Assembly (NCBI GenBank): GCA_003094555.1
Contig: NATW01000112.1
Span: 1-62,077, forward strand
DNA length: 62,077 bases
Source of the DNA: a gamma proteobacterium symbiont of Ctena orbiculata
Lineage (GTDB): Bacteria > Pseudomonadota > Gammaproteobacteria > Chromatiales > Chromatiaceae
Direction: 5' to 3'
Part shown: positions 33,264 through 54,484 of the stretch, in pieces
How the letters are laid out: every line of letters starts with the position of its first letter
Position numbering within the stretch: position 1 is the stretch's first letter
Translations under genes and position numbers: made by a program
The notes under the pieces: generated by a model
What the model was told of the DNA's origin: nothing
Databases searched by the model: none
Seen by the model: the letters and a program-made list of their open reading frames with translations, nothing else

Positions 33264-36079
33264 TGTACTTTAATTCCAGAGAAAAGGTTTTTACAGGTTA
33301 TCGGGCTGTTGTTCTCTGGTTGTTGGTTTTGTTGTTCTCGTGGATCTCTCTCATGATGTCTATTTGGGTGGAGATGCGGGCGGTCGATAGTGTGTTCAAT
33401 GATCGTGCCGGAGAGGTTCATCGTACTCTGACACAGCGGATCTCGAACCTTGAAACAGTCTTAACCTCTCTGGTGGGGTTGTACCATGCGAGTGATTTTC
33501 TCGGTATCGCTGAGCAGACCTCGTTCTCGCAGGAGATGCTGAAAGCCTACCCATTCATCTGTGGAATATTGCATATGACAAGAATTCCCGATGAGAGGCG
33601 CGAAGAGTTCGAAGCGCAAATGCGGGAACAGGGATATGTCAGCTTTACATTGATGAACGATCGGCAGTTGAATGAAATGCAGGTGAGTAACGACAACTAT
33701 CATCTGCCGGTGAGTTTCATCGAACCCATGGACCCGCGCTCTGCGAATTTACTCGGTTATGACCTGATGCGACAGCCGGGTGCATTTGAGACCCTGCAAC
33801 GATCGATTAAAAGCGGCGATATCGTAACTTTCGGACCTGTTGATATAAATAGATCGGGCAAAACACAATATTTTGTCCTAAAGCCTGTCTACCTTGGCCG
33901 CTACCCTCCGAAAAAGGTGCATGAACGACTTGATATGTTCAGTGGTATGGCGGTTCTAAGTATTGAACTTGAACAGTTTATCAATGGGCTTGCCGGCCCC
34001 GATGTACCGTATGAAATATCCCTGCTGCCTATGCTAGGCAGTGAACAGTTGCAGGGAGCTGGAATTCTATCCCGTCTCAGTAAGTCCAGTATAGCTAAAT
34101 TGGCAGTTGATCTGAGCACGCTCAAGTATAGTCATATGATAGAGATCTATGGCACTGATTTTGAATTATCTGTCACCCAAAGAATGAGAGTGAATGTCAT
34201 AGATTGGTGGAAAGTGCTAGCAATATGGATGTTGTCATTGTTGATTCTCGGATTGGCTATCGGTGTCTACCGAAACATGCGCATTGCACAGTTCAAAGAA
34301 GATGAAGCGAATGCAGCAATCGCAGCAGAAGACGAGAGATTCTCGCACGTCATCGACACCGCATTCGATGCTGTGATAACGGCAGATGCCAACTGTATGA
34401 TCCTAAGCTGGAACAGGCAGGCGGTTGAGGTGTTCGGATATAAAGAGGAAGATGTGCTTGGTGTCCACCTGCTGCAACTCATCCTTACCCATCGGTCACT
34501 GGTGGAAGCGACAGAAGCGCTCGAACCGATGTTCAAGGGCTCTAAGGATCACCCCACCGGTGTCCGCTTGGAAGTAGAAGGCAGGGATAACAATAGTCGT
34601 AAGTTCCCCCTCGATCTGGCTATCTCCTGTTCTAGAATTGGAGAAATGTTTACCCTGAGTGTATTCGCCAGAGATATCACTGAGCGCAAGCAGTGGGATG
34701 AAAAGATCCGTATGCTCGCATATAGCGATTCATTGACAAAGCTGCCAAATCGTCAGGCGTTCAAAGAACAGGTTACGCGAGCAATTAAAGTCGCCAAGCG
34801 ACATCAGCGTGTCGGCGCGATTCTATATCTTGATCTTGATGAATTTAAGCGTATCAATGACACCTTGGGTCATGATATTGGTGATATGTTGCTGAAAAAT
34901 ATTACCAACCGTTTGGAAGGACAGCTCAGGGAAACGGACCTTGTGGGAGCTAATTACGGAGATGAGACAGAGTGTCGGAATATTGCCAGGCTTGGTGGTG
35001 ACGAATTTACCGTGTTACTCGAGGATATTCAAAAGCCGGAAGTGGCGGCTTTGGTCGCTAAAAGGGTTCAGGATGCGATTGCCCGTTCGTATAACCTGAA
35101 TGGACATGAGGTCTACATTACGCCCAGCATCGGTATAGCCATTTTCCCAAGGGATGGACACGATGTTGAGGAGTTGTTGAAGAACGCTGATACAGCGATG
35201 TATCATGCCAAAGCGGTAGGAAAAAATAATTACCAGTTCTATTCCGAGCAGATGAATGTATTGGCAACCACGCGTTTAAAATTGGAAGGGAAGCTGCGTA
35301 AGGCCCTGACATGCAATGAGATGGAGCTCTTTTATCAACCCCAGATCGATCTCGCTACTGGTGAGATTGTATCCGCTGAAGCCTTGCTGCGCTGGGATGA
35401 GCCGGAGTTGGGTATGGTTTCTCCAGTGGAATTCATTCCAATCGCGGAAGAGACAGGAATGATTATTGAGCTTGGAGAGTGGGTGCTGCTCGAGGCCTGT
35501 AGGCAGAACAAGGAGTGGCAGGATGCCGGTTATAACCCAATCCGGATAGCAGTTAATCTGAGTAGTATGCAATTTATTCAACGCGACTTGAGTGCGACGG
35601 TCGCGATGGCACTTAAAAACACCCGCTTGAATCCAAAATATCTGGAGTTGGAGATAACCGAAAGTGTCATCATGCGCAATGTAAACGAGACCATAACCAC
35701 GCTGAATGATTTCAAAGAGATGGGTATCAGTATCTCTGTTGATGATTTCGGTACTGGCTATTCCTCGCTAAATTATCTGAAACGTTTCCCCCTGGATAAT
35801 TTGAAGGTCGATCGTACCTTCGTCAAAGATATTCCTGATAATGAAGACGATGTAACCATAACATCGGCGATCATAGCGTTGGCTCAAAGTTTGGGTCTTG
35901 GTGTGGTCGCAGAGGGTGTCGAGACAGAGAGTCAATTGCAGTTTTTAGAACAACAGGGTTGTGAAATGGCTCAAGGTTATCTGTTCAGCAGGCCGCTACC
36001 GGCGGAGCAGTTGGTGAGCATGCTGAGTCTCACAAATCAAAGTGAGAGAGTGGGAGTTACTTTAAACGGTAATTCTTGA
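33260..36079 (+). CDS. CHASE-PAS-GGDEF-EAL c-di-GMP enzyme
   Basis: A 939-residue inner-membrane protein: TM1 near residues 12-35, a periplasmic CHASE domain (about 55-290), TM2 near 310-330, PAS (about 350-480), GGDEF (about 490-660; the GGDEF motif at 579-583 is intact) and EAL (about 680-925; intact EALLRW at about 707-712). Both cyclase and phosphodiesterase motifs look active. An RETD I-site lies at 557-560, but 18 residues precede GGDEF where five are usual, an apparent 13-residue insertion. It overlaps the substrate-binding protein gene, so ligand binding probably controls c-di-GMP turnover. Confidence 0.93.
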   Translation: MMYFNSREKVFTGYRAVVLWLLVLLFSWISLMMSIWVEMRAVDSVFNDRAGEVHRTLTQRISNLETVLTSLVGLYHASDFLGIAEQTSFSQEMLKAYPFICGILHMTRIPDERREEFEAQMREQGYVSFTLMNDRQLNEMQVSNDNYHLPVSFIEPMDPRSANLLGYDLMRQPGAFETLQRSIKSGDIVTFGPVDINRSGKTQYFVLKPVYLGRYPPKKVHERLDMFSGMAVLSIELEQFINGLAGPDVPYEISLLPMLGSEQLQGAGILSRLSKSSIAKLAVDLSTLKYSHMIEIYGTDFELSVTQRMRVNVIDWWKVLAIWMLSLLILGLAIGVYRNMRIAQFKEDEANAAIAAEDERFSHVIDTAFDAVITADANCMILSWNRQAVEVFGYKEEDVLGVHLLQLILTHRSLVEATEALEPMFKGSKDHPTGVRLEVEGRDNNSRKFPLDLAISCSRIGEMFTLSVFARDITERKQWDEKIRMLAYSDSLTKLPNRQAFKEQVTRAIKVAKRHQRVGAILYLDLDEFKRINDTLGHDIGDMLLKNITNRLEGQLRETDLVGANYGDETECRNIARLGGDEFTVLLEDIQKPEVAALVAKRVQDAIARSYNLNGHEVYITPSIGIAIFPRDGHDVEELLKNADTAMYHAKAVGKNNYQFYSEQMNVLATTRLKLEGKLRKALTCNEMELFYQPQIDLATGEIVSAEALLRWDEPELGMVSPVEFIPIAEETGMIIELGEWVLLEACRQNKEWQDAGYNPIRIAVNLSSMQFIQRDLSATVAMALKNTRLNPKYLELEITESVIMRNVNETITTLNDFKEMGISISVDDFGTGYSSLNYLKRFPLDNLKVDRTFVKDIPDNEDDVTITSAIIALAQSLGLGVVAEGVETESQLQFLEQQGCEMAQGYLFSRPLPAEQLVSMLSLTNQSERVGVTLNGNS

Positions 36080-36128: not shown

Positions 36129-39100
36129 TTAAGGTTGTTTTGGCGGGGTGTTGATATTGACCGCCAATGGATCAGTATTGATCAGATGAAGATCCCGTTG
36201 TGGGAATGGGATTTCAATAGCGGCCTCGATGAATTTGTTATTGATTGCTTCATGTAGTGCGGTTATTGTCGCCAGACGGTTGTCCATCGACCCGAGATAG
36301 GCGCGAAGTAACAGGGTCAGCGCGCTATCTCCAAAGGCTTCAAAGGTAGCCACTGGCCTGGGGTCCTGTAGTACGTTTTCATTCTCTTCCGCGGCTTCGA
36401 TCATCAATCCCATGGCTTTATTGACATCGCTGCCATAGGCAACACCCACATTGATGATGACCCGATTGACCTTGTCGGTCAGGGTCCAATTGATAACCCG
36501 GCCTGTAATGAACTCCTTATTCGGAATCAATAATTCCTGCTTGTCATAATTAGTGATGGTGGTTGCGCGGATGCGAATGCGGGAGACGACACCTGTCGTT
36601 GAATCGAGGGTTACTACATCACCGACGCGAATTGGCCGTTCGAACAGAAGAATAATACCGCTGATGAAATTAGCGACAATCTCCTGTAGACCGAATCCGA
36701 GTCCCACCCCTAGTGCCGCAACCAACCATTGAATATTGGACCACTGAAAGCCGATCAGACTGAAAGCGATGATTAGCCCTGTACCGGCGATGAAGTACTG
36801 TAGCAGAGTGGTCAGTGCGTAACGTGCTCCGGATTCGAGAGGTAGGCGTTGGAGCAGGGTGATTTCAAGCACGCCGGGCAGGTTTTTGGCTGCAAGAAAA
36901 GTGATTATTAATATGACAACACCGGTTATTACGTCGCGTAGCGTCAAGGGTGTCTCTGTGATCACGCCGTCGATCATCTGGCTCGTATTTACAGGCAGCT
37001 GGATGTTGTTGAGAAAATCGAGTGCTGGGAGCAGGTCCGACCATATCAACCAGGTTCCGATCACGGAACCGAGTAGATAACCGAAGCGTACCAGTCTTTT
37101 CGCCTGTTCACTCAAGGCATCGAAGTTCAGTTCAGGGATCTCGGCTGTAATTACGCTACTCTCATCCTCGATTTGTGGTTGCTCCTGATCTCTCTGAGCA
37201 CGTAGTTCATTCCGTCTTTGCAATGCGTTGTGATAGCGTAATCTACGTTCGGCAATATAGAGATAGCGCAGCAGCAGTTCCCTTAAGGTATACAGGCCGA
37301 TGAAAAACCAGATGGTTGTTTCCACATGATCAAGTAGCCTTAAGGTTAGAGTCATGTAGCCGAACCCGGTGGAGAAGATCAGGCCGATCCCTATGAGTAG
37401 CAAAAAAGGGAACCATAAAAAATGCAATTGCAACAGCAAGGCATGTGGATTCATGCTGCTCCAGGTAAGCATGAGTGATCCCTGCTTGCGTAACAAACGG
37501 TAGATGAACGCAATAAAAAGGATCATTAATGCAATGGTTGCCACGCTACTGAGCGCCAGCGCCTCGACAGGCAAGCCCTCACCCGCACCAAGGGCAATCA
37601 GGAAACGCAGTGGCGCACCCACGGGGATGGCCCAGCGTAGCTCATATGCCACTGATTGACAGATCTTGTTGTTCCAACGCAGGTGACGTGTGCCTATACC
37701 CTCGGGTAGGCATAATTGATACAACAGCAGGGCTGCCGCCAGCGTTATACCTACCGTGATCAGGGCTGTGGCCATGGCCAGGGTGAAAGGTGCGGCAGTC
37801 GGTAGTGCTTTCAACAGCAGGCCTAAGCCTATCATCAGCACGGGTAGGGCCATGATCTTTACCAGGGTGAAAAACAGCGCCTTGAGTGTGAGGCGTATCG
37901 AATCAGTAGCTATTTTACGTGTGGCTCTGGCGAGATTGGGTATCTGCAGTCGCGCGAAGGGCTGTTTCCAGACAACGATCAAAAGAACCAATAGCAGAAG
38001 GAAGGCGTAGTGGACATTGAATCGGCTTGTGCTCACCAAATCAGCGCCCAGCTCTTGCCAATGTTCTGGAGATACAAGCCAAACAAGGCTTGATGCGAGC
38101 TGGGTGGGTTTGAACAATTGACTTACATCGTCTCCTGATATCCAGATTAACTGCTCGTTGATGAAGTCGGTGTAAGATTTGGATAAATTCAGCAGTTGGC
38201 GTTCTGCAAGATCAAATGAGGTGAGTTGACTGATGTAACGGCCGTAGGCCTTTTGCAATTCATTCAGTGCTTCGCGTCTGGCGCCTGCAAGCGATAATGC
38301 CTGCTTCTGTAGAAGCTTCGATTCCTTATCGGATAAGTCATCCAGTAACGATTGAGTGATAGCGTCGACATGGTTTGAGATATTGCCGCGCTCCAGGAGC
38401 AGCTCTTCGATCTCGATCTGGCGGTCCGTGGCCTTGTTTATTTCCTGTTTACGTTTCGCGGAAGAGCGGCTGTAGCTTCTCAGGGATGGTAGCGCAGCCC
38501 GGCGGCGGGATAACATCTTTCCTATCGCTTTACTACTACCCACAACGTCGACACGCTGGTTGCTGTGCTCGAAGTCAGACTGTATCTGCTCTAATTTTCG
38601 TTTGGTTGCTGTCAGTTGCTGTTGAACACGCTTTTCCCAATACACAAGTTGTTCGAGTTCAGAGCGGGTCTTGGCATTTTCCCTGGCAATGATCTGCAGT
38701 GGCAGCGGGAGAGAGGCAGTCTCCTGTTGCAACTGTTCAGCGGCCTGACGAGCCTGTTTTGCCTCTGTTTCCCTGATTTCGGCGGCAGCCTGGTTCAGAC
38801 GCTTCAGACTTACCTGTAGCTGGCTGATATGGGCTATGTTCGCGTCCCTTTGAACCTGGGTGAGATTGGTCAACAGGCTCAGGTTTCCCAACCTGAGCGT
38901 GAGCAGATCAAACTCCGCTTCGCGCAGTGCTTCTCTAGCCATCAATGACATCAGTCGGGCTTGTCTGATCTGCTTTAATTCATTTTGTGGCAATGTCTCT
39001 ATATCGGAACGAATCTGTGCCAGGGCCTCGCTTCGCGCTGAGATTTCAGTGTTGATTTGTCTGCTGCCAGCCAACAGTGTGGCAAGTTCGTCCAACTGGG

Positions 39101-39557
39101 TTTCTTGATCATCCCGCGCCTGGACCAGGTTCAGCTCCTCTTTGCTGATACGTACTTCCAAGGTGGCGAGATCTGATGATTGAATGAAACCCTCAAGGGA
39201 TTCATCCAGATCAGTGGTTCGGTTCATGTCCGTTCTGAGATCCTGAATCCTTTGCGGTGCATCCTGGATCAGTTTTTCAAGACGTGTAATCTCCCCCCTT
39301 ACCTTGTTGGCTTGTCGTAACCAGTTGTCTGCCTGGTTGAGTAGCTCGACAGCCTTATCCTTCTGGCCTTGATCCAGGCTGGCGTCACGGCTGATAGTTG
39401 TGCGGGTCTGCTCCAACTGGTCGAGGGTGATAGGCTGATTCTGTTTGAGTGGCAGGGTTGGAGCTTCGGCCCATGTCGGCAGTGCGTGACAGAGACTTAG
39501 GAGAACAAAAAATATCGCTCTTAGCTGTGGCGGGCGGATTGTTGCGGAGTAGGGCAT
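36129..39557 (-). CDS. MscK/KefA-like mechanosensitive channel
   Basis: A 1142-residue protein, matching the size of E. coli MscK and MscM. A signal peptide is followed by a long periplasmic coiled coil (about residues 40-470), a bundle of membrane helices, and the C-terminal MS_channel pore (LGVGLGFGLQEIVANFISG, then FERPIRVGDVVTL). It relieves turgor at osmotic downshift. No ribosome binding site is obvious. It converges on the GGDEF-EAL gene and lies 112 bp downstream of the cyclase-FHA gene, so it may be read from its own promoter. Confidence 0.93.
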   Translation of the reverse strand: MPYSATIRPPQLRAIFFVLLSLCHALPTWAEAPTLPLKQNQPITLDQLEQTRTTISRDASLDQGQKDKAVELLNQADNWLRQANKVRGEITRLEKLIQDAPQRIQDLRTDMNRTTDLDESLEGFIQSSDLATLEVRISKEELNLVQARDDQETQLDELATLLAGSRQINTEISARSEALAQIRSDIETLPQNELKQIRQARLMSLMAREALREAEFDLLTLRLGNLSLLTNLTQVQRDANIAHISQLQVSLKRLNQAAAEIRETEAKQARQAAEQLQQETASLPLPLQIIARENAKTRSELEQLVYWEKRVQQQLTATKRKLEQIQSDFEHSNQRVDVVGSSKAIGKMLSRRRAALPSLRSYSRSSAKRKQEINKATDRQIEIEELLLERGNISNHVDAITQSLLDDLSDKESKLLQKQALSLAGARREALNELQKAYGRYISQLTSFDLAERQLLNLSKSYTDFINEQLIWISGDDVSQLFKPTQLASSLVWLVSPEHWQELGADLVSTSRFNVHYAFLLLLVLLIVVWKQPFARLQIPNLARATRKIATDSIRLTLKALFFTLVKIMALPVLMIGLGLLLKALPTAAPFTLAMATALITVGITLAAALLLYQLCLPEGIGTRHLRWNNKICQSVAYELRWAIPVGAPLRFLIALGAGEGLPVEALALSSVATIALMILFIAFIYRLLRKQGSLMLTWSSMNPHALLLQLHFLWFPFLLLIGIGLIFSTGFGYMTLTLRLLDHVETTIWFFIGLYTLRELLLRYLYIAERRLRYHNALQRRNELRAQRDQEQPQIEDESSVITAEIPELNFDALSEQAKRLVRFGYLLGSVIGTWLIWSDLLPALDFLNNIQLPVNTSQMIDGVITETPLTLRDVITGVVILIITFLAAKNLPGVLEITLLQRLPLESGARYALTTLLQYFIAGTGLIIAFSLIGFQWSNIQWLVAALGVGLGFGLQEIVANFISGIILLFERPIRVGDVVTLDSTTGVVSRIRIRATTITNYDKQELLIPNKEFITGRVINWTLTDKVNRVIINVGVAYGSDVNKAMGLMIEAAEENENVLQDPRPVATFEAFGDSALTLLLRAYLGSMDNRLATITALHEAINNKFIEAAIEIPFPQRDLHLINTDPLAVNINTPPKQP

Positions 39558-39669
39558 GTAAATGTGTCAGTATTCCGAAGTTGCATTAGTGGTGTAAATG
39601 ATTGAAAGGTTTCTCTATGTGGTTAAAAGTTTGTGGCTGATCACACTTGTAACAGGATTTGTATTCGTA

Positions 39670-40566
39670 TCAAGGTTCCATGAGATGGTAACTGATAACA
39701 TGCTGGTTATCATCTGATACAGGTTCTCCCAGGCCGATCTTGCCACTGCCCAAGAGGGGTGCAGTCTCACGCCTTAGATAGAGTGATTGCTGGGTTTGAT
39801 TTGTCAGGTAAGTGCCGTTGGTACTGGTATCTGAAAGCACATATTTACCGCGGTTGTACTCGACTACGGCATGGGCTCTGGAGGCTGCGGCAGCGTTGAC
39901 AACAAGCTCATTGCTGGCGTCACGCCCGATATGCATGCTGTTCTGTTGGGGTTGGAATTGATAGCGCTGATGGCCATATTCCAGGACCAGGACTCTTGCC
40001 AGCGTACTTTGCGTCAGTGGCGATGTATGCAGGAAGGTAACATCATCTTTTCGCCACAAGAGATCATAAATGACCATTCGCGCCAGTTTGCCTTTTACCT
40101 TTACTTTATCGAATCGGCGTACGATTATCTGTTGCTCGTCGGACAGGTTTTGCACCACCTGTTCTGTCGTAATGATCTGCTGGGACTGGGCGATCGATGC
40201 CATGCGTGCGGCAACATTCACCGAGTCACCGTACATCCGGCCACCTTCAACAATGGCGGGTCCATAGTGGAGTCCGATTCTGGCTGATAAAGTCATACCC
40301 GACCGTTTTGCATATTCATCGACCCGCTCCTGCATGAGACAGGCACCCTCTACTGCATCGCTTACATGCGCATAGCGACTCATGACCTCATCGCCAACAA
40401 CCTCTACCACATTACCGCCGGTCTCGGCAACGACCTTGGCTAAGACCTCCTCCAGCTCCGTGATCAGTTGTTTGGCTCGGCTGTCACCCAGATTCTCATA
40501 CATGCGGGTGCTGCCCACGATATCGGCAAAGACGATGGCATATGATTGTTGAGCCGCTTTAGACAT
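39670..40566 (-). CDS. class III nucleotide cyclase fused to FHA domain
   Basis: A 298-residue soluble protein. The N-terminal adenylate/guanylate cyclase domain (about 8-175) has metal-binding Asp15 in FADIVGST and Asp59 in VVGDEVM. The C-terminal FHA domain (about 200-290) has IGRDASNELVV, SRAHAV and DTSTNGTYL. FHA domains bind phosphothreonine, so cyclase output may be tied to a phosphoprotein. It overlaps the CbiX-like gene by 8 bp and is the last gene of the signalling operon. Whether it makes cAMP or cGMP cannot be read from the motifs. Confidence 0.92.
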   Translation of the reverse strand: MSKAAQQSYAIVFADIVGSTRMYENLGDSRAKQLITELEEVLAKVVAETGGNVVEVVGDEVMSRYAHVSDAVEGACLMQERVDEYAKRSGMTLSARIGLHYGPAIVEGGRMYGDSVNVAARMASIAQSQQIITTEQVVQNLSDEQQIIVRRFDKVKVKGKLARMVIYDLLWRKDDVTFLHTSPLTQSTLARVLVLEYGHQRYQFQPQQNSMHIGRDASNELVVNAAAASRAHAVVEYNRGKYVLSDTSTNGTYLTNQTQQSLYLRRETAPLLGSGKIGLGEPVSDDNQHVISYHLMEP

Positions 40567-41410
40567 GGTCCTGTGTGGAAGGCATTGCCTTCAATCCTGA
40601 TTCCAATCTATCCCGTAGAATCCCGATCAGTTGGGGATGCTCCCCTACCAAGGGGGTTATGTCTATTTTCAGTCCAGGGTAACGCTGCTCGGTTTCTCTG
40701 CATATGCTGGCGATGTCACCACCCTGTCCAGCGTGTCTGCCAGGGAGGAGAAACAGCAGTGAGATGGCAATAGGAGTGTGCTGGTTTAGCTGCGCCTCAC
40801 GTTCCAGTATCTGCTCAAGCCGCTCACCGTTGAAGTCGTATTCGCTCCCTTCACGACGCTCCATTACAGCCTCAAGAAAATGAGTCTCGGACGGGAGCAG
40901 ATTACGTAGCTCTGAGGCGATACGCGAGCGAACCTCTGCTACTTCTCGCAGTGGTGAACCGTGGTCAACCAGAATGACCCGTGGTTGAACAACCCCGGCG
41001 ATGAGTGGATCAATCTGATCCTTCAGGATGCTGACTAATCTCGGCTCTCCCTGGGGCTGGGGATAGAGTACGTCGGCAATATGCAGCTGGAATAGGCCGT
41101 GTTTTGATTGCAGTGACTCCACCAGACTGGGAATGAGTGAAGTCAGTGCACGACTGACACCGAAAAACAGCGGGACGATCAGGAAATCTCTACTCCCATG
41201 ATTAAGCTGGGTCGAGAGAAATGATTCCAGTAGCTGGGCAGGGTTTCCGTCCAGCTGATCATTGGGAATCCTATCCGCATGTTGCAGTGAGACCGGATGT
41301 ACCCTGGATCCGCTACATTGACTGAGTTCGGCAGCCAGGTGTCTCAGGTTGAGAGTTGCCCGGGGTTGTATGGATCCGTTGTCGACTAGCAAGACCTGTG
41401 GAATATTCAT
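40559..41410 (-). CDS. two-domain CbiX/SirB-like protein, N-half degenerate
   Basis: A 283-residue protein with two chelatase-like halves. The C-terminal half keeps the class II chelatase signature (ILVDHGSPLREVA and LLFLLPGRHAGQGGD, with candidate metal His residues). The N-terminal half starts LLVDNGSIQPRA: the usual His of the HGS motif is Asn, so its metal site is probably lost. Such proteins insert Co, Fe or Ni into tetrapyrroles. No cobalamin or sirohaem gene is nearby; instead it sits in a signalling operon and overlaps the cyclase gene. It may be a sensor or scaffold. Confidence 0.8.
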   Translation of the reverse strand: MNIPQVLLVDNGSIQPRATLNLRHLAAELSQCSGSRVHPVSLQHADRIPNDQLDGNPAQLLESFLSTQLNHGSRDFLIVPLFFGVSRALTSLIPSLVESLQSKHGLFQLHIADVLYPQPQGEPRLVSILKDQIDPLIAGVVQPRVILVDHGSPLREVAEVRSRIASELRNLLPSETHFLEAVMERREGSEYDFNGERLEQILEREAQLNQHTPIAISLLFLLPGRHAGQGGDIASICRETEQRYPGLKIDITPLVGEHPQLIGILRDRLESGLKAMPSTQDHV

Positions 41411-41424
41411 ATATCCCGAACTTA

Positions 41425-42516
41425 TCAGTCGTCGTCGCGGTAGAGGAGTGCGATATTCATGAACTCATCCTGTAGCTGGAGGAATGCTTCCACGATATCC
41501 GGATCGAGATGGCTGCCTGCGCTCTGTCTGACGATCTCCACCGCTGTTTCGTGGCTATAGGCCTCCTTGTAGACCCGCTTGTTGATGAGTGCGTCATAGA
41601 CGTCGGCAATTGCCATCAAACGGCCTGAAATGGGAATGTCATCACCTTTCAATCCGCGTGGATATCCGCTACCGTCCCAGCGTTCGTGGTGGGTATAGGC
41701 GATCTCCCTGGCCATCAGCAGGAAATCGGTACTTCCCAACTCCTGTTCTGCCCGCAACAGGGCGTCATGGCCATATTGGGCATGTTTCTTCATCAATATC
41801 CACTCCTCCTCATCGAGCTTGCCAGGTTTCAGCAGAATGCGATCGGGCACGCCGACCTTTCCGATGTCGTGTAGCGGGGATGTCTTGCTTAACATCTCGA
41901 TGGTGCCATCAATTTGCAGGTAATCTGCAAATCGTGGGTGAGTCTTAAGATGATCTGCGAGTACCTTGATATAGTTCTGGGTACGCAGGATATGTTTGCC
42001 GGTTTCGCTGTCACGGGTTTCGGCCAGGGTGGCCATACAGAAGATAGCCACATCCTTTGTCCGGTTGAGTTCCTCTGTGCGGGCGCCGACCCGCTGTTCC
42101 AACTGCTCGTTATGATCCTGCAATTGTTGTTGAGCTTGGTGCAGTGCCAAGTGGGATTTTACCCGTGCACGTACAATGGGCGGACTCATCGGTTTGGCAA
42201 TATAGTCGACAGCGCCGAGCTCGAAACCCCTCACCTCGTCAGTGACTTCACTTTTCACTGTCAGGAAGATCACCGGAATACCCCTGGTACGCGGATCCTC
42301 CTTGAGTAGGCGGCAGACTTCGTAACCGTCCATGCCCGGCATCAGGATATCCAACAATACCAGGTCGGGGATTGGTTCATCGACAGCCCGCTTCAGTGCC
42401 TGGGCACCACTCTTTGATACCACTGTCGAGTAGTCATCTTTCAATAGATCGACCAGAATATCGATATACAGCGTCTCGTCATCAACAATTAGTATTTTTG
42501 CTCTGTCAGCTTCCAT
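41425..42516 (-). CDS. response regulator with HD-GYP c-di-GMP phosphodiesterase
   Basis: A 363-residue protein: receiver domain with phospho-acceptor Asp56 in LLDILMPGMDG, a coiled linker (about 125-165), then an HD-GYP domain with LHDIGKVGVPD, HH-E in THHERWDGSGYPRG and IADVYDAL. All catalytic motifs are present, so it should hydrolyse c-di-GMP. GGGGAGGAAT precedes the start, which lies 1 bp after the hybrid kinase stop. The kinase's HPt domain is the obvious phospho-donor. Confidence 0.94.
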   Translation of the reverse strand: MEADRAKILIVDDETLYIDILVDLLKDDYSTVVSKSGAQALKRAVDEPIPDLVLLDILMPGMDGYEVCRLLKEDPRTRGIPVIFLTVKSEVTDEVRGFELGAVDYIAKPMSPPIVRARVKSHLALHQAQQQLQDHNEQLEQRVGARTEELNRTKDVAIFCMATLAETRDSETGKHILRTQNYIKVLADHLKTHPRFADYLQIDGTIEMLSKTSPLHDIGKVGVPDRILLKPGKLDEEEWILMKKHAQYGHDALLRAEQELGSTDFLLMAREIAYTHHERWDGSGYPRGLKGDDIPISGRLMAIADVYDALINKRVYKEAYSHETAVEIVRQSAGSHLDPDIVEAFLQLQDEFMNIALLYRDDD

Positions 42517-42517
42517 A

Positions 42518-45500
42518 TCATTCCTCCCCTAGGTGCGCTCTCAACGCCGCCAAGCTCTCCCTGGCCAGGTCGAAGTCGTAATCCCGGATCTGACTTCCCA
42601 GGCGGTTAGTAAGGTCAACCGCATCCTTTTGCTTCAGTAATTGGTTCAATGATTGAAATAATCTCTTTGCATCCGGATCTCCCATGGCCAACATATCATC
42701 GAGTGAAGTTATCAATTTGTCGATACTGACCTGGCTTTCCCCAGGCATGGGGCTGGCTGCGTCTGTCACTGGGGTATCAGATGATGCCGACTCTTCCAGG
42801 AAATTACGCAGTCCATTGAAAAGCTCTGCAAAGGTTTGACGATAGGCATCGGGCAGGTGTGGTAACGGACTGTTTCCTTCTTTTGTCAATTCAAAGTGCA
42901 GGTCTTTCGATGCCTGCTGCAGGCTGTGGGCGCCAATATTGCCCGAGACCCCTTCTAGGGTATGCAAGGTGCGTTTGGCGTTGTCCAGCTCGGCGTGTTG
43001 TAAATTCTTTTCAAGTTTCGCGATATCATGGCTGTGGTTGGCGACGAATTCTTTAAGCAGGTTGCGAAATAGGCGTCGATTGCCGCCTACACGCTGCAGG
43101 CCCCATTGCAGGTCGATACCGGGTAGAGTGGGGGGGAACTCAATATTGAGGTCCTGCGGACGCTGCAGGCGTTGTTGTTTTGAATGTGCACCGGCAGGCT
43201 TTAACCAACGGCTGAGAACCCTGTGGAGACGTGTTGGTTCGATCGGTTTGGGTATATGCTCATCCATGCCGGTGGCAAGGCATCGCTCACGTTCGTCGGC
43301 CATGGCGTGGGCAGTCATGGCGATCAACGGCAGCTCTGTGTGCCTGGTGTCGGCACGAATGCGTCGAGTTGCTTCATAACCATCCATCTCTGGCATCTGT
43401 AGATCCATCAACACCAGGTCGAAGCGATGCCGGTCGATGGCTTCGATCGCCTGCTGGCCGTTGCTAACCGTATGCACCATTAGTCCAAAACCCTCGAGCA
43501 GCTCCTGAGCCACCTGCTGATTGATCACATTGTCCTCGACCAAGAGTACCGAGCCTGAGAGTCGTTGACCAGACATTGTTGCATCGGCCTTGACGGGGGC
43601 GATCTCATCCTCATCATTCAAGACCCGGATCAGGGTATCGAACAGAACTGATGGACTGACGGGTTTGATCAGGATGGCATCCAGCCCCGCCTCTTCCGCC
43701 TGTAACATAACCTCTTCCCGTCCATAGGCGGTAATGAGTATCACTGCCGGGACTGTTGAGAGCTTGGCGCTGTTCTGCTTGATGCGGTGACCGGCTTCAA
43801 TACCGTTGAGCCCCGGCATGCGCCAATCCATCAGGACCAGGTGGTAGGGTTTTTTCTCGTTCTGATCGGCTTGTCGCAGCAGTTCCAGGGCTTCGCTGGC
43901 ATTCATGCTGGAAGTGACGTCAAAGGTGAATGAAATCAGGCGTTCACTGAGCAATTCAAGGGCGGTGGGGTTGTCATCAACCACCAACGCTCTCAGGCCG
44001 CGTAGATCTGGGTCCGGTATCCAGCTCTGTCTGGCTGTTGCCTCACTGCTGCCCAAGGGGATGACAAAGCTGAAGGTACTGCCTTTGCCGGGGTGGCTGT
44101 CGACCTGGAGATCCCCCTGCATTAGCTTGACCAGGTGCCTGCAGATGCTCAGGCCGAGACCGCTGCCGCCATGGCGCCTGGTGGTGGAACCGTCCAACTG
44201 GTTGAAGGGTTTGAACAGGCGCGGCAACTCGGCTTGATCGATGCCAATGCCGGTATCCTTGACGCTGAATTGTATCCATAACCCCGTTTCATCCTGCCTC
44301 ACCAATACCGCGCTGACCATGACCTCTCCCCGCTCCGTGAACTTGATGGCATTCCCGGTAAGATTGATTAGCACCTGTCCAAGCCTTAGTGGGTCGCCAA
44401 TCAGTGTACCGGGTATATTCAGGTCGCGATTGAAGAGAATCTCCAAATCCTTTTCATCGGCTCGCATGACAGTCAGGCTGGCCAGGTTGTCCATGACCTC
44501 GTCCAACGAAAAGGGGATTTTATCGATCTCCAGCTTACCGGCTTCGATCTTTGAGAAATCGAGGATGTCATTGATCACCCCGAGTAGGGTGTGAGAGGCG
44601 CTCTTGATCTTATCCACATAGTGGAACTGTCTCGGTGTCAGCTGGGTCTGCAGGGCGAGGTGGCTGAATCCCATTATGGCGTTCATCGGGGTGCGGATCT
44701 CATGGCTCATATTGGCCAGGAAATAGCTCTTGAATCGGTTGGCTTGTTCTGCCTCCGCCTTGGCCAACGCCAAGGCCGCCTTTTGGCGCCGAATCTGGGC
44801 TGTCCACAGCAGCGAGATCAGCAGCAGTGAGCCGGCCACCGCCAACACCTGCCAGAGCAGTGTATAATCCACTTCCACGTCATAGCGAATGGCCAGTGAA
44901 TCCTGGCGTATTGCGCGCCGTTCATTCTCATCGATCCTCGCCAGGGCCTTGTTCAGGATCGATTGCAACTCCGGCCAATCCTTACGCACACCGATGGCCA
45001 GATCATTGGCATAGGGGGTGGGAGCGGCAACCTTGAGATTGCCAAGGCCCAGCTTGTCGATGAGATAACTGCCAAGGGTCAGGTTGCCGATGTAGGCATC
45101 GACCTCACCGCTGGCGAGTGCCTGCAAGGCTTCGGCGGTGGTGTCCATCTTTCTCAGGTTGAGTTGCGGATAGTCCTTTTCCAGGTACTCAACGGTCACA
45201 TACTCCTTCTCAACCGCGATCTTGAGACCATGCAGATCATCGATGCCGGTTACCAAGGGGGTGTCAGTACGGGTGAACACCATGAATGGGAAGTGAAGAT
45301 AGGGTTGGGTGAAATTGAGATACTCAAAGCGTGACGGCGATGGTGTCAGTGCCGGTAAGATGTCTATTTCGCCCGCTTTGGCACCCGCCATTACCTGGGC
45401 CCAGCTGAGGGATGTGGAATAGGTGAATTCAACGCCCAGCATATCCCGGATACGGGAGAGGAAATCGGCGGAGAGACCACGATGTCTCCCCTGTTCATCG

Positions 45501-48500
45501 ACGAACTCGATGGGCTCCCAGAAGCGATCGATACCAATTCGAATCTCTCGATGATCATCCAGCCAGGTCTGCTCTTGCGGGGTCAACAGCAAGCGCTTCA
45601 TCCCCGGGGTGGCTTGCTCCCTCTCCTCGGCGCTTGGCACCCATTTCTTGAGAATGCCACGCAGTTCATTGTGCGAGAGTGTACCCAGGGCCTTCTGCAA
45701 TATGTCGCGTAGAATAGGCCAGTCGTCCCTAACACCGATAGCGTTGACCGAGACACTCTCATCGAGCTTGCTCTGTATCTTGAGATTTGAGATCAGTTCG
45801 TGTTCGATAAGGTAGAGAGCCACGGCACGATTGCCCACATAGGCCTCCACCTCGCCCCGGGAGACCGCATCCAGGGCGTCGCTGGTGTTGCTGTATTCCA
45901 CCTGTTTTATCGCTGGGTAACGATCTGCGAGTATCCTGCCTAACATGAAATTCTGCTCCAGGGCGACCCGCTTACCGGTCAAATTCGATATCCTCTGGAC
46001 GGGTGGGTACCCCTTATGCGTTACGATCACATGGGGGATGGTGAGGTAGGGATCGGTGAACAGGAAATGGCGCCTGCGCTCGGATGTCGGCGTGATGTCC
46101 ATGAGTGCGGGCAGACGCTTCTCCTTCACGGCAGTATAAATATCATTCCATGGGGCAGGTTGGGGATATAACACCCCGCCCAGACGCCGATTCAACGCCT
46201 GGATAATGTCGGCACCAATACCGGTGGCATGCCCCCGTGCATCGATAAAGTCCATGGGCGGCCAGGCATTCATCACCCCGATATCGATGCGTTGATGTTG
46301 AGCCAGCCACTCCCGCTCCTTTTTGCTGAGTACCAATGAGGTGTTCATGGGTTCCCGTTCACTGGTGAGCCAGTGATGTTTCAACATCCGATGCTCTTCC
46401 GGGGGGGTGTCTGCAAGGACCTTGTCAATTATGCTTGCCAGTATCGGCCAGTCTTTTCTGACCCCCATGCGTAGTTTGGTCTTACTCAGGCTTTCACCGG
46501 GTGAGACTGCCTTGAGGTGGTTCAGTCGATATTCATCGATCAGCAGATCGGCCACGGCCTGGCTGCCGAGATAGGCATCCGCTTGGCCGATTTGCACTGC
46601 TTCCAACGCCTGTCGGGTATTCTCTACGATCAGAAGTTGCAGGGAAGGGTGCTCTATTGAGAGTCGCTCGTGCAGCCAGTAGTCTTTTTCCACGGCGACC
46701 CGTTTGCCTTCAAGGTTGTCAAGTCCGCCAATGTGCATGTCCTTGCGGATGTAGAGCTTGATCGGTGAGACATGATAAGGGAGGGTGAATGTCATGTATT
46801 GATGGCGTTCATCGGATAATGAAACAGTACCGATCAGATCCAGTTCATGTGACTGGATCTGATCGAGCAGTCCGGACCAGTCACTATCGGTCACCACGGT
46901 GAAGGTCAAGCCGAGTCGCCTTTCAAGGAGTTTGAGATAATCGGCCGAGAGTCCGCGATAGTCTCCATCCGCGGTCATAAAGCTGATCGGTTTTGCCTGG
47001 GTCTCGACACCGACCCGAATCACCGGGTGTTGTGCTATCCACGACTGCTCCTTGGGGGTAAGGCCATACAGCGTCTTGTCTTGATCACCGACATCCAGGA
47101 AGACCCAGCGACGCCGAATGGTGTCGCGTTGCTCCTCATCAATGGATAGCAATGCCTTCTCCAGTATGCTCGCAAGTTCAGGCCAGTCATTACGGCTCGC
47201 GATGGAAAGGCGACTGGGTTGACCCAGGGTGCCGACCACTCTCAGATTGGTGATCTCATGCCTGTCCAGCCAGTAACCCGCCACGCCACTGCTGAGGATT
47301 GTGGCATCCGCTGCACCGAAGGCGACTTGCTGGAGTGCTGTCGGAATATCCGCCACTTCGTTGATCTTCACCTTTGGCCACTTCTTGCGCACGATAGAGA
47401 TGATCGAGTAGCCGCTGGGCAGTGCCAGGGTTTTCTGGGACAGATCCGCTTCTGTCTGGATGTCGCTTTGTTGTCGCCGCGTGATGATATGGCGTTGGGA
47501 GAGAAGATAGGGTTCGGTGAAATCGAGGAACGCCTCTCTTTGCTGGGTGCGATTCGCCAGCGGTAGGAGATCGACCTGCCGTTTCGCGGCCATATCAAGG
47601 GTCTGCTCCCAGCTCTTGGTTGGTATCAACTGGAGGTTGATATTGAGCTTACGGCCGATGAGTTTGAGCATATCCGCAGATACACCATGGTGACGACCCT
47701 GATCGTCAGCGAATTCATAGGGGGCGAAATCGGGATCGATGGCGATGCGTAGCGTGTTGTGCTGTTGCAGCCAGGCCTCTTCCTGTGGATTGAGTTTTAA
47801 CGACGATTGTAAAGGTAGATCGATGGCGATACGTGCAGATTTGTCGACCCATCGCGCAAGGATGGCGTCCATCTCCTGGCGGTTGATCTTACCGAGTCCG
47901 TCCTTGACCACCGCAAGCAGTTTCGGGCTTTCTTTTACGACGGCGGCGCGTAAGGAGATTTTGAACAATACCTTGTTTAATGCAATGAATTCGCCCCGCA
48001 AACCAAGGCGCAGAAGAGCAAAATCGGTTGAGGGCCGATCAGCAATAAAGGCATCTAGTTCACCACGTTCCACGGCGTGTATCATCTGTGGGATATTTTC
48101 GAAAACCACCTGTGATGCCTGGGGAAAGAGTCTGCTGAATAGATCTTTTGGAATAGGGCCCTGTGTGCCGATGCGTGAAGCTGTGAAATCGCTCAGTGAA
48201 CGATCTTTACTGTTGTTGAACAGGTAGTATAGATAGGCCGGGGTTTCCAGATACGGGGCTGTGAAGTCGAGCCAGGCGCTACGTTCCTTCGAGAGTAAAA
48301 GACCGGCATGCAGACCGGCGCGTCCATCCTTCATCGCATCCAGGGATCTTGAGATGTCGGTGAGACGGAAGCGCACTGGTATGCCTGTCTTTTTAGACCA
48401 CAGGCGCCACATGTCTATACCAACACCGATCGGTTCCCCTTGCTGGTTCAACATGCTGAAGGGCGGAATGTTACGGCTTCCAACGATTGTCAGTACATCC

Positions 48501-48724
48501 TGATGTTCGGTATGTACCTGGCCCAGCCAATGGTGTTCGATACTGGTAGGTTCTTCGGCTGCCTCTCCCTGCTGGTTGCGGTAGCTCAGTGGTGGTGGGT
48601 TCGATTCGTGGGCTGGCTTTACCCTAGCCTGATCGTCCCCCATGGCTTGACAGGTGCAGGTAAAGAACAAGAGTAGAAAAAACAACCCTTTCATCTGTTT
48701 CACTGACGTTAAAGCAAAGTCCAT
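42518..48724 (-). CDS. giant hybrid kinase with five solute-binding domains
   Basis: A 2068-residue BvgS/EvgS-like sensor. After a signal peptide, five SBP_bac_3 domains start near residues 76, 325, 568, 813 and 1061, a regular period of about 245. Each is introduced by a linker like [12 protein letters not shown]. One TM lies near 1285-1300, HisKA near 1340 ([11 protein letters not shown]), HATPase at 1410-1560 ([10 protein letters not shown]), REC1 at 1580-1690 ([10 protein letters not shown]), REC2 at 1728-1830 ([10 protein letters not shown]) and HPt at about 1890-1930 ([10 protein letters not shown]). It heads a four-gene operon with the HD-GYP regulator. The ligands are probably amino acids or similar small molecules. 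An alternative start is Met11. Confidence 0.93.
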
Positions 48725-48972
48725 ATCTTTCTTGGTTATCCCTGCTCCGCTTAAGTCATGCAGCCCGAGTGCTTTAGTGAAGTGTGGACAAAGGTTACAT
48801 GCAAAAGCAAGTTATTTATTCCTTTAAGGATTTAGTGTCGCATCCTGTTGACGTTGACGCTTCAAGTCTTGAAACCTAAGTCCCTCCCTCCTCTTTACAC
48901 GGATGACGAGTGATCTCACCAGAGCGCCGCTGGCTGTAGGTTTGCATTTGAGACGCAAGGGTACGTCCCATC

Positions 48973-48988
48973 CCTGGAGATCTCCAGG
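48973..48988. repeat. perfect 16-bp palindrome
   Basis: CCTGGAGA is followed directly by its exact reverse complement, with no spacer. It lies 12 bp before the OxyR-like site and is a candidate repressor operator. Confidence 0.55.
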
Positions 48989-48999
48989 CCTCTTTAACG

Positions 49000-51276
<2,277 letters not shown>

Positions 51277-51296
51277 CTATTTACATCGATGTGATT

Positions 51297-51334
51297 GGGG
51301 GCGGCGTTTTAGGATTATCAAAAACGCCGCCCCC
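51297..51334 (+). terminator. strong intrinsic terminator after katG
   Basis: A perfect 14-bp stem pairs 51297-51310 (G-rich, ending TTTT) with 51321-51334 around a 10-base loop. GATTTAT follows. The stem carries A/T flanks on both sides, so it may act in both directions. Confidence 0.85.
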
Positions 51335-51350
51335 GATTTATATACTGGAT

Positions 51351-51398
51351 ATGCATAAATGCATAAATGCATAAATGCATAAATGCGTAAATGCGTAA
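51351..51398. repeat. six-unit 8-bp tandem repeat
   Basis: Four copies of ATGCATAA are followed by two copies of the variant ATGCGTAA, without gaps. The array lies between the katG terminator and the chemoreceptor gene, about 100 bp before its start. Short perfect arrays like this can gain or lose units by slippage. Confidence 0.9.
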
Positions 51399-51501
51399 AT
51401 TCGAAAAGTTAAATCTGCTGTATGCAATTGCTTAAAGCTTTTTAGTGAATGGCCGATACCAGATCTAACAAGTTTTTATAAGGGAATATGAGGGAACACC
51501 C

Positions 51502-52599
51502 ATGGGATGGTTTAATAACGACGATAAGTTGCGTATCGGACAGCTGGAAGCAGAAAAAGAACAACTGAAACAGAGAATAGCTGAACTGGAGCGACAACTA
51601 GAGGGGCAGGAACAGATCCTGGCCGCGAATCAGTGGCTTGAATCCAGTGAAACTCAACTCAATGACCTGATGGAGTTCGAGAACAGGCAGTTGAAAGCGG
51701 GGCTTGGGATCGTGCAGTCCGATCTGGCAGGCTCTGTTGAGTCGGCTAAATTGACTCTCGGTTGTGCTAACAATGTACATTCCTATTTTTCAGGTCTCAG
51801 CACCGACATCGCCAAGATTACCGGGTCACTGGACGATTTGGCTAAACTATCCACCAACGCTGATGGCTCCGTAAAGAGCATGTCATCCCGCGCCACGGAG
51901 ATCAGCTCAATTCTGGCGCTGATTAAGGGGATTGCGGAGCAGACCAATCTGCTTGCATTGAATGCTGCAATCGAGGCGGCCCGTGCCGGTGAACAGGGGC
52001 GAGGTTTCGCGGTTGTGGCTGACGAGGTGCGTGGCTTGGCTGACAAGACCCAATCGGCAATCAGCGAGACCAATGAAGTTATCCAGTCGATGCAGCAGAA
52101 TGTGGAATCTGTTGGTGGTGACTCAACCCGCCTGATCGAATATATCAATCAGGTACAGGACGAAGTGCAGGGATTCGAACAGAATCTTAATCGCATCAAT
52201 GGCGAGGTAAAGGGTTACTTCGGTGACATCTCCGCCACCACAGACAGTGTATTCATGGGGTTAGCGAAGCTGGACCACCTGTTGTGGAAGGTGAACACCT
52301 ATCTCTCCATCAATCAAGGACAACCGGCATTTGATTTTGTCGATCACCACAACTGTCGGCTTGGTAAGTGGTATGAAGAGGGAGAGGGCAATGAGTTTTT
52401 CTCCTCCTCTCCGGCTTACAAGGATCTTGAGCGCCCTCATGAAGTCGTACATGAAACCACACGTGCGATATTTGACCTATTGCAAGGTGAACGGGATTAT
52501 GACGCCCTCATGCGCAGCCTGAAGGTGATGGAAGAGCACAGTATGCAGGTGTTCGGTAAGCTCGACGAGATCAAACAGAGCGTGGAGTCGGGTAACTGA
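51502..52599 (+). CDS. cytosolic chemoreceptor with CZB zinc-binding-type domain
   Basis: A 365-residue methyl-accepting-type protein without any membrane segment. An N-terminal coiled coil (about 8-50) leads into the MCP signalling hairpin (about 125-200, [20 protein letters not shown] and [13 protein letters not shown]). A C-terminal CZB domain (about 270-360) has [13 protein letters not shown] and the His pair in HEVVHE, the 3His/1Cys zinc-site pattern. CZB receptors respond to zinc or to oxidants such as hypochlorite via the zinc-thiolate. GAGGGA precedes the start. No che genes are in the window, so it must signal to an array encoded elsewhere. Confidence 0.92.
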
Positions 52600-52978
52600 A
52601 TCAATGTCTTTACCGATATCATTCCCAAACGCTAAACGGTCGATAAATCGATAGTGGCGACAGTGTATTATGAAGACGGCAATGATGAGAGTCACGTCCT
52701 CTGGTTGAGGATCAGCTTACATTGTATGGTGGATTTAAAATCCTATTGCGGCGCAAATAAGATTTGGGGCGCTTTTCATGCTGTTGCTCTAGCTGGTAGG
52801 CGCGATGGATTACGATACCGAGTTAAACATAGTAAATTTATTCAACGATCAAGGTTATCTTAAGATTATAAATTGTTCACTTTCGTTTAATCTGGTTATA
52901 CTCCAGCATGGTTCGGGCTACATTTTGTTGCGCTCCGATCCACTCTCAGTGATTCTTGGAGTATGTTCAGAGGAAACA
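52600..52978. other. intergenic region before bacteriohemerythrin gene
   Basis: A 379-bp gap with no convincing ORF. A likely promoter, TTGTTC (52873-52878) and TATACT (52897-52902) with an 18-bp spacer, lies about 77 bp before the next start. A short palindrome ATCTTAAGAT is at about 52857-52866. The remainder shows nothing recognisable. Confidence 0.5.
52873..52902 (+). promoter_or_regulatory. candidate promoter of bacteriohemerythrin gene
   Basis: TTGTTC and TATACT (five of six bases match the -10 consensus) are 18 bp apart and directed toward the start at 52979. The leader would be about 70 nt. Confidence 0.5.
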
Positions 52979-53440
52979 ATGGCTCATCTGACATGGAAAA
53001 AGGACCTCGATACCGGCATTGAGGTCATCGACGGGCAGCATAAACAAATTGTCAATTACATCAACCAACTCGATGACGCAAGGGTGACAAAAAACCGTGT
53101 AGTCATTGCTAAGGTCATCGACGACACCGTTGATTATACCGTTTCCCACTTCGGCTTCGAGGAGACACTGATCGAGGATGCCGATTATGAATTCACACGG
53201 CCCCACAAGCGGGTACATGAGCTTTTCATAAAACGGGTGAGTGAATACAAGCAGCGATTTGACGATGGTGAAGACATTGCCGATGAACTCCATGGCCTAC
53301 TGTCGAGATGGCTTTTTAGCCATATCCAGAATGATGACGCTGCGTATGTGCCCAGTGTGAAAACCTCGCTGGCCAAACTCGAAAAAAACAATAAGAAACA
53401 AGGCTTCTTCTCACGTTCACTAAAGAAATTCTTCGGCTGA
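52979..53440 (+). CDS. bacteriohemerythrin
   Basis: A 153-residue four-helix oxygen carrier. All seven di-iron ligands are visible: His21 (DGQHKQI), His57 and Glu61 (HFGFEE), His76 and His80 (RPHKRVH), His115 and Asp120 (SHIQNDD). A basic C-terminal tail (about 140-153) is extra. The ATG at 52979 follows AGAGGAAAC; the frame is open further upstream but without a plausible start. It binds oxygen reversibly and may store or sense it. Its neighbourhood (KatG, CZB chemoreceptor, OxyR) suggests oxygen or oxidant adaptation. Confidence 0.94.
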   Translation: MAHLTWKKDLDTGIEVIDGQHKQIVNYINQLDDARVTKNRVVIAKVIDDTVDYTVSHFGFEETLIEDADYEFTRPHKRVHELFIKRVSEYKQRFDDGEDIADELHGLLSRWLFSHIQNDDAAYVPSVKTSLAKLEKNNKKQGFFSRSLKKFFG

Positions 53441-53718
53441 TACCCTTCTCCCGGTTCACTTCGCGCAACGGCTCAATCAACCGATCCAGAGTTGTTCTGC
53501 GCATGCTCGACTTACACCTTTAAACGGCTACCCGTAAAGTTGTGAAATGAAATATTGACTCATGACCTGTGCAATATTCACATCACAAACGGATTCGCCC
53601 TTAGTAAATTTACACTGCCGATAGCGATTCGAAAATCAATTGGCTATGTGAAAGGAAAGACAAAAATACAGATTCTATCTGCGGATGTCGTTGATCACAT
53701 TAGCAAAGGAGAATGGAA

Positions 53719-54306
53719 ATGAATTTTAAGACAAAATTGCGCTTAACCGTAACGACCCTGGCATTGACTGCCACCACATCACTGCTTGCCCAGCCACCTC
53801 ACGACCCCGATCTCATCAGTGACGGCAACCGCTGGACCATAACCGCCTATGATGACAGCAGTCCCGTCCACACCCAGTGGGCAACCCAGGGGATATGCTT
53901 CTACCCTGATGCTTTTGTTGGGACACACCAGCGTTATGTATGGGTTTCGGACACCTATCCAGACTGGAATGGACGTGCCAGCCAGGAAGGTGATCAGATA
54001 TTTATGCATGGTGATTTCCAGTGGCCATATGGCGCCAACAAGGATGGTGGTCACGATGGTATGGAGTGGGAGATCGTCACCGAGAGCCGTGCCAATGGAG
54101 GTGCTGGGCACTGGAAGGAGTGGATAGAAGACGGAGGCTTCGGCATCACCATCGGTTTTGCCAATGCGACACTGAAACGGGTGGGTAAATGCAAGTATGC
54201 AACGGCCGAGGAAGCCATCAAGGCCGGTCATGAGCTGGAACTGCCCAAGGACGAGCAGGGTAATTACCTCTACAGTCCGTTCGGTGTATCCGAGGTGCTC
54301 AAGTAA
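53719..54306 (+). CDS. small exported protein of unknown function
   Basis: A 195-residue protein with a signal peptide (KLRLTVTTLALTATTSLLA, cut near QPPH). The mature part is rich in Trp, Tyr, Asp and Gly, has two Cys (in GICFYPD and GKCKYAT) that could form a disulfide, and looks like a compact beta-rich periplasmic or secreted domain. AAAGGAGA supports the ATG at 53719 over 53713. It is monocistronic, ended by a strong terminator, and was not matched to a known family. About 278 bp upstream hold nothing recognisable. Confidence 0.75.
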   Translation: MNFKTKLRLTVTTLALTATTSLLAQPPHDPDLISDGNRWTITAYDDSSPVHTQWATQGICFYPDAFVGTHQRYVWVSDTYPDWNGRASQEGDQIFMHGDFQWPYGANKDGGHDGMEWEIVTESRANGGAGHWKEWIEDGGFGITIGFANATLKRVGKCKYATAEEAIKAGHELELPKDEQGNYLYSPFGVSEVLK

Positions 54307-54340
54307 TCTACGTCGACCATTGCATGATAATGCTATCGGT

Positions 54341-54372
54341 AAGCCGCCTTGTGAGAAACAAGGCGGCTTTTC
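54341..54372 (+). terminator. intrinsic terminator
   Basis: AAGCCGCCTTGT (54341-54352) pairs perfectly with ACAAGGCGGCTT (54358-54369) around GAGAA, followed by TTC. It ends the small exported-protein gene and insulates oxyR. Confidence 0.9.
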
Positions 54373-54484
54373 TGTATCTATAGGCATATTCTTTTGATCC
54401 TTGTTGGATTGATATCTGTCATTGGTAATGATAGAGGCGAATAGGGTAAAATGCGCTTCACGATTGATAGAACCGATTACAATC

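Follow-up and report, generated by a model that had tools for sequence, protein, structure and literature searches.

Two probably separate modules, a kinase/HD-GYP pair and a chelatase-cyclase group, lie end to end in part of Candidatus Thiodiazotropha

The RpfC/RpfG system of Xanthomonas pairs a hybrid kinase, equipped with a receiver and a C-terminal Hpt domain, with a c-di-GMP-cleaving receiver-HD-GYP protein encoded alongside it (PMC3749722). A related sensor architecture is found in the BvgS family (BvgS, EvgS), where tandem SBP_bac_3 (flytrap) domains are followed by a membrane segment, kinase, receiver and Hpt; members without PAS exist, and the set described in the available part of PMC5829827 was selected for two flytrap domains. 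A link between cyclic mononucleotides and c-di-GMP has been described for XC_0250/XC_0249 of Xanthomonas campestris, where the cGMP of a class III cyclase acts on c-di-GMP metabolism by stimulating c-di-GMP synthesis through a cNMP-GGDEF protein (PMC3770947), and RpfG is said to contact XC_0249 (PMC3749722). Among class II chelatases, Paracoccus CbiX and Salmonella CbiK have a two-half fold with one active half and the catalytic His pair in the C-half (PMC4063343, in the text available).

All parts of the locus described here belong to known kinds or are variants of them. It lies in the window (the whole stretch of DNA analysed, 62,077 nucleotides), which belongs to a genome of 193 contigs (G000). 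The genus, assigned from named kin, is Candidatus Thiodiazotropha, for which 22 genomes were compared, including G000 and a second genome of the same species (G093). The ORF listing of the window confirms four minus-strand ORFs where the original prediction had placed them; these and the neighbouring features are as follows.

36129-39557, minus strand: MscK-like mechanosensitive channel gene, the fifth gene, 112 bp beyond CYC
39670-40566, minus strand: CYC, 298 aa, class III nucleotidyl cyclase with an FHA domain
40559-41410, minus strand: CBIX, 283 aa, two-half class II chelatase-type protein
41425-42516, minus strand: HDGYP, 363 aa, receiver and HD-GYP phosphodiesterase-type protein with intact motifs
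42518-48724, minus strand: KIN, 2068 aa, hybrid kinase with five SBP_bac_3 (flytrap) domains, a hydrophobic segment, HisKA, HATPase_c, two receivers and Hpt
41411-54421: stretch between CBIX and the LysR-type gene, holding HDGYP, KIN, katG, an MCP-CZB gene, a hemerythrin gene and a 197-aa ORF
54422-55399, plus strand: LysR-type regulator gene, beyond katG

The coordinates give spacings of 1 bp between KIN and HDGYP and 14 bp between HDGYP and CBIX and an 8-bp overlap between CBIX and CYC, in agreement with the gaps or overlaps of 1-15 bp proposed earlier, and the domain content proposed for all four genes was recovered by Pfam with every match above cut-off. The MscK-like gene was absent from the earlier set of four, yet it is the usual neighbour of CYC. 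Comparison of G000 with G093 gives dN/dS values of 0.27 for KIN, 0.02 for HDGYP, 0.26 for CBIX and 0.06 for CYC, so that all four are real genes under constraint. KIN and HDGYP are also constrained between G000 and G019, a genome of another species (dN/dS 0.16 and 0.10, with dS above 1).

The Pfam matches of KIN comprise five SBP_bac_3 stretches, HisKA, HATPase_c, two Response_reg and Hpt. The flytrap domains share 23-35% mutual identity, and the protein contains one hydrophobic segment, at aa 1285-1303. KIN thus has the tandem SBP_bac_3 domains ahead of a hybrid kinase with receiver and Hpt that mark the BvgS family, but differs from it in carrying five flytrap domains instead of the two by which the published set was selected, in its two receivers and in its HD-GYP partner. 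The NCBIfam models BarA and EvgS match KIN below their own cut-offs. The Hpt motif of KIN is HTLEG instead of the usual form with Lys, a point against the relay set out below. HDGYP matches Response_reg and HD_5/HD, its motifs HDIGK and HHERWDGSGYP are present, and the nearest solved HD-GYP chain is 4r8z. The two genes place an Hpt-bearing hybrid kinase beside a receiver-HD-GYP protein, as in RpfC/RpfG, from which they differ in the sensor of five periplasmic flytrap domains and in the second receiver of KIN.

The pairing of these two genes recurs across the genus. At an identity of at least 50%, the 22 genomes hold 17 HD-GYP loci (one partial, in G013), and in 16 of them the gene immediately upstream of the HD-GYP gene encodes a hybrid kinase. 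This conservation renders plausible the relay from kinase to HD-GYP that had been proposed. The flytrap part is matched by the kinase in nine of the 16 kinase/HD-GYP loci and is unmatched at E 1e-15 in the other seven, whose kinases therefore have another sensor. In five loci (L116-L120, from G011, G009, G002, G008 and G016) kinases paired with a 62-64% identical HD-GYP match the flytrap part over aa 794-1300 only, and the number of flytrap domains may thus vary within this kinase group. KIN and HDGYP are best read as a relay of the RpfC/RpfG type whose sensor is of the BvgS type, in which ligands of the five periplasmic flytrap domains would change the activity of the kinase, phosphate would pass from HisKA to receiver to Hpt to the receiver of HDGYP, and the HD-GYP domain would hydrolyse c-di-GMP.

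CBIX is matched by Pfam CbiX in two stretches. An AF2 model from four sequences (pLDDT 85.7, with residues 187-192 under 50) finds SirB as its best PDB fold match (E 2.8e-10), followed by FetB, CbiK, HemH and the CbiX structure 4ccs; 4ccs and 1qgo are among these matches at 15-16% identity. Model and fold matches together place CBIX in the two-half fold of class II chelatases. The claim that one of its halves is dead proved correct: the His of the N-half DHGS motif is replaced by Asn (N11) in all 39 aligned relatives. The C-half residues H150, E184, H226 and H258 are kept in the same 39. Three of these, H150, E184 and H226, supply the His...Glu...His metal site in one half and correspond to His10, Glu43 and His76 of SirB by order and spacing, a match of sequence order and not of superposed sites. 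An active site has been reported in the C-half for Paracoccus CbiX and CbiK and in the N-half for SirB and CbiXL (PMC4063343, in the text available), so that a dead half is normal in this family. The best explanation of CBIX, from sequence and model, is a predicted class II chelatase-type enzyme that works from its C-half; it differs from Paracoccus CbiX and Salmonella CbiK in that its neighbours are not siroheme or cobalamin genes.

The CysG N-terminal domain is present in 21 of 21 genus genomes searched, which rules out CBIX as the sole siroheme route, and a role as cobalt chelatase for cobalamin was rejected because CbiD and CobN-type proteins gave no match in the same 21 genomes. These pathway markers do not point to a substrate for CBIX. 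This outcome would also suit a protein that has given up cofactor synthesis and serves CYC as a sensor subunit by binding a metal or tetrapyrrole, as would the observations that CBIX always adjoins CYC where the genus has CYC and that the heme-linked protein FetB is among the fold matches. We regard such a sensor as unlikely: the four C-half residues are kept in 39 of 39 sequences, including those of 17 non-genus genomes without a CYC match in the fetched flanks, which suggests that CBIX as an enzyme is older than its link to CYC.

Selenocysteine or readthrough was considered for CBIX in G010, G020 and G004 and rejected, as the internal TGA reflects a match overrunning the normal stop and the ORFs end at 277-279 aa. 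In other genera of the family (G021-G057), a CobN/BchH-type large subunit occurs in 16 of 17 clear CBIX genomes and in none of 20 others, a co-occurrence that could reflect the shared ancestry of phototrophs; CBIX is found without this subunit in all 21 genus genomes, and the subunit without CBIX in five of 35 other-family genomes.

CYC matches Pfam Guanylate_cyc and FHA. In an alignment of 34 rows, 18 from the genus and 16 from elsewhere, every row keeps the two metal aspartates and the catalytic Arg, and the catalytic Asn position holds Asn in 27 rows, His in six and Ala in one. The purine-selecting positions, set by alignment with the solved cyclases 3mr7 and Ma1120 (Lys and Asp there), are E55 and R110. 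The same E/R pair is seen in 20 rows (the 18 genus genomes, G049 and G141), next to K/D in seven, R/D in two, E/Q in two, G/Q in two and S/Q in one. A basic residue goes with Asp in nine of nine rows and Asp occurs in none of the other 25 (Fisher p 2e-8, descriptive only, as the rows are related). The members of a further cyclase-FHA group, five of the 34 rows (G217, G218, G219, G050 and G037; L153-L155, L158 and L159), combine an E/Q, G/Q or S/Q pair with His for the catalytic Asn.

In class III cyclases, Lys with Asp (or Thr) sets ATP use and Glu with Cys (or Ser) sets GTP use; the second position is less conserved, Glu plays the main part in the choice of GTP, and the basis of guanylate cyclase specificity is called poorly understood (PMC7384201, in the part available). 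CYC has neither residue of the adenylate pair. Its first position carries the Glu of guanylate cyclases (E55), and its second carries Arg (R110) in place of Cys or Ser. With one of the two guanylate marks fitting, CYC may prefer GTP. Alternatively, E55/R110 could be a charge-reversed salt bridge that keeps the shape of the pocket in a protein that is not a guanylate cyclase and uses ATP, both nucleotides or neither. The Arg at the second position favours such a bridge, and so does the pairing of basic with Asp versus other with other, which holds in all 34 rows (nine and 25), though a specificity switch predicts the same. That Glu is given the main part in GTP choice (PMC7384201, in the part available) tells against it, and use of neither nucleotide is made less credible by the catalytic residues: the metal aspartates and catalytic Arg are kept throughout the 34 rows, and each of the 20 E/R rows has the catalytic Asn, so that activity is likely. 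We consider the salt bridge possible but doubtful, and favour CYC as a class III cyclase that would probably make cGMP. The E/R pocket is the part of this locus most worth a bench test, and the family offers Lys/Asp and Glu/Arg members that can be compared for ATP versus GTP use.

The second domain of CYC points to regulation by phosphorylated partners. FHA domains that bind phosphopeptides conserve a set of Arg, Ser, Arg, His and Asn, and the corresponding R215, S229, R230, H232 and N250 are kept in 34 of 34 rows. Phosphothreonine proteins bound by this domain could set the activity or location of CYC. The genome of the window has 10 Pkinase and 16 cNMP_binding matches, which makes FHA partners and cNMP receptors possible; it also has five class III cyclase matches in all, and CYC therefore need not be the sole source of cyclic mononucleotide. 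XC_0250 differs from CYC in having TPR repeats instead of FHA and in being described, in the text available, as without the usual catalytic Asn and Arg.

The distribution of the genes separates them into two groups. CBIX was searched in 93 genomes (21 of the genus including G000, 37 other family members and 35 from other families) and found in 39, namely 21 of 21, 18 of 37 and none of 35, respectively. One of these, G049, was matched at E 6.6e-4 only, and this weak match was not recovered in tblastn of fetched loci. CBIX loci were settled by tblastn, as ORF picking alone missed CBIX in eight of 41 loci, including G019. The closest named loci are those of Candidatus Thiodiazotropha endolucinida (72%) and of a symbiont of the clam Ctena orbiculata (73%). 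CYC is present in 18 of 22 genus genomes and adjoins CBIX every time, with MscK next in 17 of these 18 (the exception is G017). No CYC match was found in the remaining four genomes (G005, G014, G015 and G018), where the ORF that follows CBIX is 94-138 aa long; in G014 (L045) it is of glyoxalase type, and CBIX is flanked on its opposite side by a catalase gene. Outside the genus, CYC was not matched in the fetched flanks, some of them short, of 17 of 18 CBIX loci, and CBIX gave no match near 16 fetched CYC relatives, 11 of which have a flank of about 1.5 kb or less.

KIN and HDGYP, for their part, lie directly upstream of CBIX in only three of 22 genus genomes (G000, G093 and G019), which are also the only ones in the fetched stretches with CBIX and CYC behind a kinase/HD-GYP pair. 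CBIX directly faces the divergent LysR-type gene in 13 other genus genomes, and 14 of the 17 HD-GYP loci are without CBIX or CYC in the fetched stretch. The kinase, HD-GYP, hemerythrin and MCP genes of the stretch that intervenes in G000 are also present in that of G019, where katG gave no match.

In a four-protein tree, for which G015 and G017 have under half of the columns, G006 is sister to G019 (support 100/100), and G010, G020 and G004, none of which has a kinase/HD-GYP pair at this site, are sister to G000/G093 (100/99). The alignment with G019 of the 860 bases of G006 leading up to and into CBIX (L038, contig C128, 1-860) falls into three segments, one of 305 columns at 91%, one of 343 columns at 69% whose end lies about 50 nt short of the G019 kinase, and one of 126 columns at 70% over the 3' end of the HD-GYP gene and the start of CBIX. 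This is a deletion scar: the region upstream of KIN survives as a decayed piece of about 340 nt and the 3' end of HDGYP as one of about 105 nt, and the 85 nt between them take the place of about 7.1 kb in G019. The CBIX, CYC and MscK genes of G006 are open. The common ancestor of the two thus had the arrangement, and G006 lost the kinase and HD-GYP genes and kept CBIX, CYC and MscK.

Fourfold-site mismatch between G000 and G019 is 0.48 for KIN and 0.44 for HDGYP, against 0.69 for CBIX, 0.59 for CYC and 0.58 for MscK (Fisher p 0.0004 for HDGYP versus CBIX). A recent transfer of KIN and HDGYP between the two lines was rejected, since four ORFs in a control region around cysG give a similar mismatch of 0.45-0.51; this fits vertical descent, with the CBIX block diverging faster. 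(Seven control ORFs were listed; a 255-aa row with mismatch 0.08 and 49% identity, probably not a gene, was set aside, and for two others G019 gave no match.) The 60 nt preceding CBIX in G010 are similar to those of G003 (score reached in 0 of 500 plain base shuffles) and G001 (2 of 500), and are unlike those of G007 (483 of 500) and G017 (313 of 500). The pair may have come to CBIX by one gain with losses or by two gains, and G010, G020 and G004 may have lost it or never had it.

The reported operon is thus probably two separately inherited modules that adjoin in a small fraction of the genus, and CBIX and CYC, usually with MscK, are the group more widely kept at this site. The original prediction of one conserved four-gene system is not borne out: the order occurs in three of 22 genomes, the pair was lost in G006 and it is absent here from G010, G020 and G004, so that conservation of gene order in relatives, by which the prediction was to be judged, largely fails. 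A single dedicated system, in which sensed solutes would bring c-di-GMP down and shift cAMP/cGMP together, all from one transcript, would account for the gaps of 1 and 14 bp, the 8-bp overlap, the constraint on all four genes and the order kept in G093 and in G019. Close spacing of HDGYP and CBIX in two species (14 bp in G000/G093, 1 bp in G019) is also what selection for coupling would produce, and to that extent counts against two modules, as does the constraint on KIN and HDGYP between G000 and G019. We nonetheless judge such a system improbable, given its restriction to three genomes, the loss of one half in G006 with the rest kept, and a kinase pair that forms a unit at 16 of 17 HD-GYP loci, 14 of 17 being without CBIX or CYC in the fetched stretch.

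Two separate modules may still be coupled in this lineage. Here 14 bp separate the end of HDGYP from CBIX, and read-through from the kinase promoter could add to the expression of CBIX, CYC and MscK. Mere neighbourhood, in which a promoter of their own within the HDGYP 3' end drives these three genes and the kinase pair has no effect on them, is a tentative possibility. It would agree with the upstream region of its own that CBIX has in most genus genomes, facing the LysR-type gene, and with G006, which works without the pair. The 14 bp in G000 and 1 bp in G019, however, leave no intergenic promoter, and promoter-like matches inside HDGYP are at chance level. Across 39400-49300, such matches are not above shuffles (7 versus a mean of 7.4), nor are terminator-like matches more frequent (10 versus a mean of 8.0), and operon structure is therefore not readable from them. 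The two-module data fit weak coupling and no coupling alike, and this lineage might control c-di-GMP and a cyclic mononucleotide jointly.

The boldest reading holds that an FHA-gated cyclase subfamily (18 genus genomes, G049 and G141), with a charge-reversed Glu/Arg pocket in place of Lys/Asp, whose second base-reading residue is unlisted for guanylate cyclases in the available part of PMC7384201, makes cGMP and in this lineage is wired with a chelatase-type protein and MscK behind a five-flytrap kinase/HD-GYP relay, such that a single transcript lets one solute signal bring c-di-GMP down and cGMP up. We hold this to be unlikely. As for the novelty originally claimed for the link, the exact four-gene combination was indeed not found in the literature searched, where a relative could exist among reports on HD-GYP/guanylyl cyclase/hybrid histidine kinase operons, and no description of Thiodiazotropha with c-di-GMP was found there either; the concept, however, is known from RpfC/RpfG (PMC3749722) and from the cGMP-to-c-di-GMP link in Xanthomonas (PMC3770947), as far as the available texts go. 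The locus illustrates how genes packed tightly on one strand can pass for a dedicated operon even though in relatives they fall into two modules. If relay and cyclase are co-transcribed, it would exemplify in nature a rearrangement that brought the control of c-di-GMP and that of a cyclic mononucleotide together.

Several further genes lie near these modules. The stretch common to G019 includes an MCP-type protein with a zinc-binding CZB domain (51502-52599) and a hemerythrin-type protein (52805-53440). A CHASE-PAS-GGDEF-EAL gene at 33260-36079 on the plus strand, convergent to the MscK gene, is a further c-di-GMP gene at the locus, and its counterpart stands beside MscK in many genus genomes.
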